A stretch of DNA of 43,236 nt, from positions 1-43,236 of the forward strand of contig JACNIU010000486.1 in assembly GCA_014382905.1 (NCBI GenBank). Reading direction: 5' to 3'. Position numbers and translations under genes: made by a program. Position 1 is the first letter of the stretch; each line of letters opens with the position of its first letter. The notes below the pieces were generated by a model, which saw only the letters and a list, made by a program, of their open reading frames with translations, searched no databases and was not told the origin of the DNA. The DNA is from Desulfobacterales bacterium (GTDB lineage Bacteria; Desulfobacterota; DSM-4660; Desulfatiglandales; Desulfatiglandaceae). This document shows, piece by piece, positions 264 through 4,665 of this stretch.

Positions 264-986
264 TTGTCTGATCCCTCAACAATTTTCCCTATCTGGCTTA
301 CCGAGTGGATGGAAGTACACGAGGTGACCCTATGGGGTGCGGCAGATCTTTGGGATTTTTCCACACCCCAGGATGAGACAGGGCAGAGATATCCTTTCGC
401 TATTTCATGGGCTATTCCAATGAATCCCCAAATAATGGCCAGCATCCAGAACGGGCCTAACCAAGCATATGCTGATGAGTATGCCAAAGTGAACAATCGT
501 ATCAATGAATTATCAGGAGCATTAGCAGCCGAAATCAAAGTCAGAGGTTTTCGATCTAAACCGCTGGCGGCTTCGGATCGTACCGATACGGTTAATATCA
601 AAGGGGACTTTCCTCACAAAACTGCAGCAACAAGAGCAGGGTTGGGCTGGGTAGGTCGTCATTGTCAGCTTATTACGCGCCCGTTCGGATCATGGATTCG
701 ATTGGGAACTGTTTTCACCGACATTGAACTTCCATGTGGGACACCAATAGAAAGAAACTTCTGCGGTAGTTGTACGCGCTGCGTAGAAGTCTGCCCTGCA
801 AAGGCATTGACAGGTAACGCATGGTATCCAGGATTGCCGCGCGAAGAGATATTGGATGTACGAGCATGCGATCAATGGAAAAAGGAACACTACTTTCAGT
901 ATCACAATGGGCACAACTGCGGAATTTGCTCAGCAGTCTGTCCCTATGGATTAAAAGTGCTGAAAAAGAAGCCTATTACAGCATAA
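264..986 (+). CDS. QueG-like 4Fe-4S double-cluster protein
   Basis: The protein has 240 residues and a TTG start at 264, preceded by a GGGATGAG stretch; no upstream ATG is available in frame. Its C-terminal third carries two ferredoxin-type cysteine sets. The first is CGSCTRCVEVCP (CxxCxxCxxxCP). The second is CGICSAVCP, with an earlier cysteine about 17 residues upstream. The middle contains KTAATRAGLGWVGRH, close to the GLGWxGKN segment of epoxyqueuosine reductases, which reduce epoxyqueuosine in tRNA using cobalamin and Fe-S clusters. It is shorter than QueG (about 350 residues) and lacks the HEAT-repeat tail, so it belongs to the broader QueG-like reductase group; its substrate is unknown. 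An attC-like site begins about 30 bases after the stop, which suggests the gene may be an integron cassette. Confidence 0.75.
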   Translation: MSDPSTIFPIWLTEWMEVHEVTLWGAADLWDFSTPQDETGQRYPFAISWAIPMNPQIMASIQNGPNQAYADEYAKVNNRINELSGALAAEIKVRGFRSKPLAASDRTDTVNIKGDFPHKTAATRAGLGWVGRHCQLITRPFGSWIRLGTVFTDIELPCGTPIERNFCGSCTRCVEVCPAKALTGNAWYPGLPREEILDVRACDQWKKEHYFQYHNGHNCGICSAVCPYGLKVLKKKPITA

Positions 987-1014
987 CATTTTGTATATAC
1001 AATTAATATTCATA

Positions 1015-1079
1015 TAACAAGTCGCTGGAGATTCGACGGGAAAACGCTGGCGCGTTTCCCGCGTCTCAGTTCCGCGTTA
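1015..1079 (+). other. attC-like integron recombination site (candidate)
   Basis: The segment starts with TAACAAGTCGCTGGAG and ends with CTCAGTTCCGCGTTA. These are the classic TAACAA and GCGTTA ends of attC (59-base element) sites. The two arms fold on each other around GGGAAAACGC and GCGTTTCCC with a TGGC loop, giving the imperfect stem with unpaired bases typical of attC. It lies directly downstream of a single gene on the same strand, as expected for a gene cassette. The outer R box fits the RYYYAAC consensus only in part, and no integrase gene is visible, so this remains a candidate. Confidence 0.5.
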
Positions 1080-3190: not shown

Positions 3191-3300
3191 TATTGGCTGT
3201 ACCAGCGTTCTTCTTTCAACCTGATAGGGAAAGAGGATTCAAAATGCTCCACGGTCACCCAGAAACCCCGTTACTCCGAACAAAAGGAGAGCGGGGTTTT
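3191..3300 (+). repeat. Repeat family A, copy 2
   Basis: This is the second copy of the element described at 1143-1251, in the same orientation and with the same order of blocks, including GGGAAAGAGGATT and ACCCCGTTACTC. A short open frame crosses it, but the two copies are not conserved in any shared reading frame, so they look like RNA or DNA elements and not genes. Confidence 0.6.
3263..3300 (+). terminator. Terminator hairpin of repeat family A copy 2
   Basis: AAACCCCG at 3263-3270 pairs with CGGGGTTT at 3292-3299, with an inner ACTCC/GGAGA pairing. A-rich and T-rich flanks on both sides suggest it can work in both directions. Confidence 0.65.
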
Positions 3301-3344: not shown

Positions 3345-3456
3345 TCAGGACGTGGGGATAAATCACGACAGTTTACAATTAACAGCGAGGCTAAAAACCA
3401 CATAAAATAAGATAGTTGGATTCGTTATTTACTTACAAATGGATGTCCCGTATACC
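3345..3456 (+). repeat. 112-bp direct repeat, left copy
   Basis: It begins TCAGGACGTGGGGATAAATC and matches 4554-4665 over 112 bases without gaps, with about six mismatches. The two copies are 1209 bases apart and bracket the AbiEi antitoxin gene. No gene crosses this copy convincingly. Confidence 0.9.
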
Positions 3457-3634: not shown

Positions 3635-4441
3635 ATGAAGCTGATGCCTTTTTTCCGCACACATCCTGTTTTTAACGTCGAGGAGTTTGCCGGGTTTCTG
3701 TCTTCCGATGGAACTCACAACGTAAGAACCCAGGAATCTCTCCTTGCCTACCATGTGAAAGCGGGTAATATTGTCCGGGTCCGCCGTGGGCTCTATGCAT
3801 CCGTTCCCCCAGGGGCATCGCCGGAAAACTTCCCCATAGACCCATTCCTCCTTGCCGCCCGAATATCGAAAGGCGCTGTTTTGGCTTACCACACGGCGCT
3901 GGAGGCCCATGGAAAGGCCTATTCGGTGTACGAACACTTTACTTATCTTGTAAACAAACCCATACCCCTGATAACCTTTCGCTTTCATTTGTTCAAAGGG
4001 GTAAGATTTCCGCAGGCCCTCGTAAGAAAGAAGGTGGAATTTTTTGACGTGATGCAAGCCGATCGTTCGGGAATGGAAATACGCATTACTGGACTTGAGA
4101 GGACCTTCGTAGATGTACTGAACCGTCCCGGCTTGTCGGGAAGCTGGGAAGAAATATGGCGGTCCCTGGAAACCGTTGAGTATTTCGATCTCGATAAGGT
4201 TACGGAATACACATTACTTTTGGGAAACGCCACTGCCGCTGCAAAAGTGGGCTTTTTTCTGGACCAGCACCGGGAACCTCTGATGGTTGAAGACGTCCAT
4301 TTAAAGGCAATCCATGATCTTTGTCCGCGCCGACCCCACTACATGGAAAGAAGCCTACGAAAATCCGGTCGCTTTGTTTCCGCCTGGAACCTGGTTGTTC
4401 CCGAAGAAATCATCCATCGGTCATGGGAGGAATCGTGGTGA
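3635..4441 (+). CDS. abiEi: Type IV toxin-antitoxin AbiEi-family antitoxin, orphaned
   Basis: The protein has 268 residues and starts at ATG 3635. It has an N-terminal winged-helix DNA-binding part (about residues 1-75, ending VRRGLYASVPPG) and the conserved AbiEi body with LAARISKGAVLAYHTALEAHG and RITGLERTFVDVLNRP. AbiEi proteins neutralise the AbiEii nucleotidyltransferase toxin without direct contact and repress their own operon through paired inverted repeats; two such repeats lie upstream. The partner toxin gene overlaps its stop codon but is cut off after about 40 codons, so this antitoxin has no working partner here. The gene sits inside 112-bp direct repeats. Confidence 0.88.
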   Translation: MKLMPFFRTHPVFNVEEFAGFLSSDGTHNVRTQESLLAYHVKAGNIVRVRRGLYASVPPGASPENFPIDPFLLAARISKGAVLAYHTALEAHGKAYSVYEHFTYLVNKPIPLITFRFHLFKGVRFPQALVRKKVEFFDVMQADRSGMEIRITGLERTFVDVLNRPGLSGSWEEIWRSLETVEYFDLDKVTEYTLLLGNATAAAKVGFFLDQHREPLMVEDVHLKAIHDLCPRRPHYMERSLRKSGRFVSAWNLVVPEEIIHRSWEESW

Positions 4442-4614
4442 GGATATCCTCTGAAATGCTGATCACCCAGGCTGAGGCTACAGGTTTCCGAACGGATATT
4501 CTGGAAAAAGTCGGCCTTCTGATCCATCTGCTTGAAGCCTTGCGCAGTCGTTCTCAGGACGTGGGGATAAATCACCACAGTTTACAATTAACAGCGAAGC
4601 TAAAAACCACATAA
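4438..4614 (+). pseudogene. Truncated AbiEii nucleotidyltransferase toxin
   Basis: A GTG at 4438 overlaps the antitoxin stop (GTGA) and has GGGAGG seven bases upstream. The product begins with ISSEMLITQAEATGFR and continues DILEKVGLLIHLLEALRS, the typical start of AbiEii toxins. At 4554 the sequence runs into the right 112-bp repeat and ends at 4614. The nucleotidyltransferase core (GGTAL and the DxD motif) is absent, so it cannot be catalytic. The break falls exactly at the edge of the repeat. Confidence 0.85.
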
Positions 4615-4665
4615 AATAAGATAGTTGGATGCGTTACTTACTTACAAATGGACGTCCCGCATACC
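4554..4665 (+). repeat. 112-bp direct repeat, right copy
   Basis: This is the right copy of the repeat at 3345-3456, same orientation and no gaps. Its first base marks where homology of the AbiEii toxin stops. A short GC-rich hairpin (CCCCCGAC...GTTGGGGG) follows at about 4735-4753. Confidence 0.9.

Follow-up and report, generated by a model that had tools for sequence, protein, structure and literature searches.

Organisation of the locus

The DNA analysed here, a stretch of 43,236 nt that we call the window, is contig C479 of the genome (G000) of a sediment bacterium, whose assembly consists of 500 contigs and is 97.87% complete and 7.74% contaminated. Near the left end of the window, a single gene is preceded by a short core sequence and followed by a palindromic site. 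A first-pass annotation of this DNA had proposed that positions 264-1079 might form an integron gene cassette, with a TAACAA...GCGTTA site at 1015-1079 directly behind an open reading frame (ORF). Both the ORF (264-986) and the site are present, and the site folds better than its shuffles (z -2.95 on the + strand and -3.08 on the - strand). The boundaries given at that stage nevertheless need to be widened, because the site extends over 1012-1082 and the cassette over about 223-1076. The features are as follows.

1-133, + strand: upstream ORF, 3' end only (second frame, ending in ...NEYRSRYINALQEADNGNYIPLLEFAKS and a stop), truncated by the contig start
222-230, + strand: cassette-start core site GTTATATGC, with a single occurrence in the window, recurring in L012, L013 and L086
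about 223-1076, + strand: gene cassette, 854 bp between the two crossover points, with ends inferred from the core and the attC site
264-986, + strand: cassette gene, 240 aa, TTG start; QueG/reductive dehalogenase (class III cobalamin enzyme) superfamily, two 4Fe-4S clusters
1011-1018: inverse core CATATAAC, complementary to the start core GTTATATGC
1012-1082, + strand: attC site, found by a strict structural scan, a weight-matrix model and the Infernal model R1
1012-1018, + strand: attC R'' box ATATAAC
1019-1024 and 1070-1075, + strand: attC spacers, 6 nt each
1025-1031, + strand: attC L'' CTGGAGA
1064-1069, + strand: attC L' TCTCAG
1076-1082, + strand: attC R' box GTTATTT
1077-1101, + strand: dispersed repeat arm TTATTTAACTATTTAAGGATGTCCC, agreeing with the arm consensus at 23 of 25 positions and starting exactly at 1077

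Recognition of the attC site

Within the site, L'' and L' pair over 2 bp, one extrahelical G and 4 bp (stem CT-G-GAGA/TCTCAG), with a long inner hairpin between them. This layout (R''-spacer-L''-hairpin-L'-spacer-R') corresponds to the classical attC architecture known, for example, from aadA cassettes. The pattern TAACAAN{35,65}GCGTTA has a single match in the window, where 0.02 would be expected. A strict scan of both strands of the window, requiring YAAC, a spacer of 5-7 nt, 2 bp plus an extrahelical base plus 4 bp, a second spacer of 5-7 nt, GTTR and an inner stem, returned 1012-1082 as its sole match. First-order Markov shuffles (n=20) yielded a mean of 0.45 and a maximum of 2 such matches, so the strict scan by itself is not decisive. 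These chance matches, together with the REP-like arms that are common in the host genome, would suit an alternative in which a chromosomal gene is simply followed by an intrinsic terminator or a REP-type hairpin, whose palindrome resembles an attC site by chance.

Because the evidence from the strict scan is weak, models were built from attC sites on the array side of intI genes of the same class. At 16 intI loci, 13 structural matches lay on the side and strand of the array and 9 elsewhere, although the array side makes up only 49,597 of the 342,422 strand-bases. A position-weight and pairing model trained on 12 intI-linked sites gave 28.4 for 1012-1082 and 15.5 for the runner-up in the window; training sites scored 17.7-48.2 when left out. 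The maxima of 40 shuffles averaged 16.1 (sd 3.8) and reached 24.7 at the top. That the site exceeds all of these maxima, and that no T-run stands directly 3' of its stem, both argue against a terminator or REP-type hairpin.

The second model, R1, is an Infernal covariance model of our own that stands in for the attC model of IntegronFinder and was built from nine of the 12 sites (L098b, L104a and L119 were excluded because their rows were shifted in the alignment). It ranked 1012-1082 best in the window at 19.7 bits (E 0.0082), ahead of a runner-up at 10.7 bits. A failing attC model score, combined with a lack of integron elements in the genome or in relatives, had been named at the outset as grounds for abandoning the cassette proposal; under our own model, the site tops everything else in the window. 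When scaled to the whole genome, its E-value is near 1, and the site does not appear in the genome-wide R1 listing, for which 150 of 295 candidates were scored. It is among the weaker attC sites, and its significance by score would fail in a blind genome-wide search. The scan and both model scores thus make the window site credible, yet not one of the strongest. Rfam at gathering scores has no match in the window, as is expected for a DNA site. The 70-nt attC sequence, used as a DNA query against its own genome, found no second copy, which is no counter-evidence since attC sites are alike in structure more than in sequence.

Cassette boundaries

The start core GTTATATGC is the exact complement of GCATATAAC, and its GTTATAT (222-228) complements the ATATAAC (1012-1018) of the cassette's own inverse core. 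Start and end words that are reverse complements have the relation expected for the two ends of one cassette, and we infer a left crossover between G222 and T223. Among control words, 18 of 150 also have an exact 7-nt complement no more than 2.5 kb upstream, and core complementarity therefore carries weight chiefly through its recurrence in relatives. The start core stands upstream of the gene in four of five copies (the window, L012, L013 and L086), the fifth (L011) having the altered word TTGATATGC, and (C)ATATAAC follows the stop codon in all five. Outside the segment from core to inverse core, the flanks are unrelated among close copies, and at L014-L025, neither GCATATAAC nor its complement stands beside the gene. 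Shared cores within unrelated flanks point to a window cassette of about 223-1076, and this comparative evidence on the boundaries is the strongest support that we have.

The start core of L012 and that of L013 each serve also as the R' box of a complete preceding attC site (R1 scores of 32.4 and 29.8 bits). In L013, one ORF, whose product we take to resemble PNPOx-type proteins, lies between this attC site and a weaker one further upstream. An ordinary terminator or REP-type hairpin would account neither for complete attC sites beside the same gene in these two relatives nor for cores shared at both gene edges, and we regard that explanation as very improbable. No convincing attC site ending at the left core (222) was found in the window (fold z 0.07). 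The product of the truncated ORF at 1-133 may resemble Fic-family C-termini. A further gene copy, L089 (G057), has an attC-like match of 19.8 bits about 210 nt behind it, with no matching core pair seen.

Integron elements in the host genome and its class

The cassette proposal called for a search for integron elements elsewhere in the genome, and this search succeeded in part: attC sites were recovered on eight other contigs, but no intI gene was. On these contigs, R1 gave at least eight attC matches at E<=10 (150 of 295 candidates scored), seven of them at E<0.04. In a collection of attC sites plus their surroundings, 13 sources yielded 16 matches at E<=5, a total that includes the window site. 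Pairs of attC sites are present on other contigs of the host genome. At L148 and L150, the R' box of the preceding attC site doubles as the start core of the cassette, and this core is an exact complement of the R'' box of that cassette. Pfam matches were obtained for three of the eight proteins scanned beside other attC sites (RtcB, a putative cyclase and a Mrr-type restriction enzyme). One such cassette (L149, 96-1448, G000:C325) carries a full-length RtcB (359.9 bits) between matching cores at 165 and 1384. Separately, attC sites at L151 (4830) and L153 (7550), on different contigs, are each followed by a nearly identical cassette start (GTTATAAAATGATAACAAC...) at the contig end.

No integrase had been visible at the locus, and the full assembly likewise has no TIGR02249 match over the cut-off, with the proviso that a gene could be missed among 500 contigs. 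The host genome consequently does not qualify as holding a complete integron, defined by an intI gene plus attI. Across the class, 38 of 85 genomes have an intI match over the TIGR02249 cut-off, and 56 of 85 have attC sites at E<=0.01 in a stricter class-wide run.

The encoded protein

The cassette protein has a Fer4_16 match of 43 bits, corresponding to a ferredoxin module with two 4Fe-4S clusters, and eight Cys residues are invariant in all 15 sequences of the protein alignment (A6, from which L022, with stops in frame, and L024 were left out). In structure comparisons (Foldseek, VIA), its AlphaFold model, of moderate quality (pLDDT 71.6, with residues 210-240 below 50), aligns with QueG and NpRdhA at Z scores of about 13; the B12 proteins CblD and CblC follow with lower values. 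The protein thus shows the two features that define the class III cobalamin superfamily (a cobalamin-domain fold and two 4Fe-4S clusters), at the moderate confidence of the model.

The original description of the gene as ‘QueG-like’ is apt in that the protein is a relative within the superfamily, but needs restricting, as the protein is not QueG itself. The score against TIGR00276 (QueG) is 79.3 bits against a cut-off of 200, and that against TIGR02486 (reductive dehalogenase) is 68.8 bits against 160.35. A Tyr common to QueG and RdhA and a QueG Asp have been implicated in catalysis (PMC4646009). Judging from distance, Tyr73 would occupy the position of the shared Tyr. In the alignment to 5d08, the QueG catalytic Asp falls on Ile112 (which Asp this is rests on our own numbering argument), and no row of A6 has Asp at that position. 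The suggestion that this is simply the organism's QueG, lying by chance near an attC-like hairpin, can draw on a single-sequence search of solved structures, in which QueG 5d08 was the best match (1.2e-12). A protein of just 240 aa, far below the QueG cut-off and with Ile in place of the conserved Asp, fits this suggestion so poorly that we consider it exceedingly improbable. The protein is instead a short, class III type relative of QueG and reductive dehalogenases that is distinct from QueG. Most likely, it would reduce a small molecule, perhaps with the help of a corrinoid.

Relatives, transfer and fixation

Relatives of the protein are encoded at 25 loci in species genomes. The closest to the window are L086 (89.4% protein identity), which lies in the same genome (G037) as L011, then L011 itself (88.2%), L012 (86.5%) and L013 (81.5%). 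Ribosomal protein L2 of the window host is 72.8% and 66.1% identical to that of the L012 and L013 hosts, respectively, and L012 and L013 share 84.1% in the cassette protein against 63.9% in L2. Since the cassette protein is closer than L2 in L012 and L013, horizontal transfer is indicated, on a test that uses one marker gene and hosts that are metagenome bins, such that misbinning could mimic transfer. Within the family, L011 and L086 have 88.2% and 89.4% protein identity against 91.5% for L2. For non-cassette relatives, the corresponding protein and L2 identities to the window are 77.9% and 82.4% (L014), 74.6% and 70.0% (L016), 71.6% and 70.9% (L017), 76.0% and 82.8% (G057), and 64.5% and 66.1% (L021). 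Judging from identity and contig place, the L012 host (G085) and the L013 host (G086) seem to be the same as G211 and G368, which belong to the same phylum and lie outside the 85 class genomes.

Values of dN/dS (NG86) between 0.14 and 0.26 across the six pairs computed indicate that the cassette protein is under purifying selection. Cassette copies form one clade in only 6% of bootstrap trees, and a single origin of these copies is not something that the protein tree, taken by itself, requires. The L012 host has three intI matches over the cut-off; none was found at E<=1e-50 in the hosts of L013 and of L011/L086. Viral contigs hold only distant relatives (nine loci, best 28% identity), as do plasmids (52 records, all below 60% identity); neither search thus revealed a carrier.

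In genus g9, L011 (G037) retains the inverse core while its start core has decayed, and L088, the G036 copy, is without about 110 nt that hold the inverse core. This decay and this deletion indicate that cassette fixation has occurred in that genus. The window cassette might likewise be a former cassette that is now chromosomally fixed, with its attC site out of use, a variant compatible with our main reading. The g9 copies and an assembly with no intI match over the cut-off speak for fixation, whereas the window attC site retains its boxes, spacers and extrahelical base, and further attC sites persist in the genome. We consider this variant a real possibility, though short of probable.

The right edge and dispersed repeats

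The repeat arm, of which other copies exist elsewhere in the host genome, begins at 1077, and the half of R' to the right of the crossover therefore comes from the repeat. This right edge would fit an event in which the cassette, or an array that has it as its last member, was inserted at the GTT of a repeat. The left arm of the repeat, however, is missing from positions 1-222, which were read by eye. Among the 15 attC sites of the host genome that were checked, only the window's adjoins a repeat arm. Secondary attG insertion has been demonstrated in E. coli (PMC12444791). That dispersed palindromic repeats serve as cassette landing sites, the GTT of the arm (GTTATTTAAC...GGACGTCCC) acting as an attG-type target, is a speculation that we think unlikely to hold. 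If it were true, cassettes would scatter from arrays into the chromosome and end as fixed single genes.

Other repeats were encountered in the window. Two copies (1159-1251 and 3209-3300) of a dispersed repeat of about 110 nt end in a terminator-like hairpin (CCCCGTTACTC/GAGAGCGGGG). This repeat occurs at about 20 genomic places with about 70-93% identity and a conserved hairpin; at gathering score it matches no Rfam family, the PyrR model giving 28.5 bits where 54 are required. A 112-nt direct repeat (3345-3456 and 4554-4665), 95% identical and ending in GTTAYTTACTTACAAATGGAYGTCCC, seems to be akin to the arm that starts at 1077. The ORF between its two copies (3635-4441) has an AbiEi-like antitoxin domain (PF13338, 27.4 bits).

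Interpretation and comparison with known systems

The reading that we favour, and hold to be highly probable as a whole, is that of a true integron cassette at about 223-1076, an orphan at this locus, which carries redox cargo, has spread between lineages and is under purifying selection. The proposal of an integron cassette is thus borne out by the model scores, the other attC sites in the genome and the cores that recur in relatives. The cassette would consist of one ORF plus its own attC site, with no linked intI, and is probably transferable. Its product would be a small redox protein that joins a two-cluster ferredoxin module to a cobalamin domain folded as in the QueG/reductive dehalogenase superfamily. 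Within one phylum, the cassette form would have passed between distant lineages, and purifying selection would still act on it. On this reading, the locus documents a cassette with cargo of this superfamily moving between distant anaerobic lineages, and its copies represent different stages on the way from arrayed cassette to fixed chromosomal gene. This suggests that the integrons of these bacteria trade redox enzymes, beyond defence or resistance genes.

The protein resembles QueG and RdhA in its cobalamin-domain fold, its two 4Fe-4S clusters and the presumed placement of Tyr73, and differs from them in its length, its scores under both NCBIfam cut-offs and its lack of the QueG Asp. Insertion of cassettes at secondary sites (attG) was reportedly described by Loot et al. 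in 2024. The window cassette is similar in lying outside an integron and in having its right junction at a GTT that is not known to be part of an attI or attC site; it differs in that its left junction is unseen and its putative target is a repeat arm. With CALIN elements, the locus shares the attC anatomy, the single ORF, the complementarity of core and inverse core, the lack of a linked intI and the presence of further attC sites in the genome. It departs from them in its QueG/RdhA-superfamily cargo and in its number of attC sites, since only one is visible on a contig that begins 222 nt upstream of the cassette, and the locus as seen here falls outside the CALIN rule of at least two clustered attC sites. 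The integron gene cassette is a known kind of element, and the one described here is a new instance of it.
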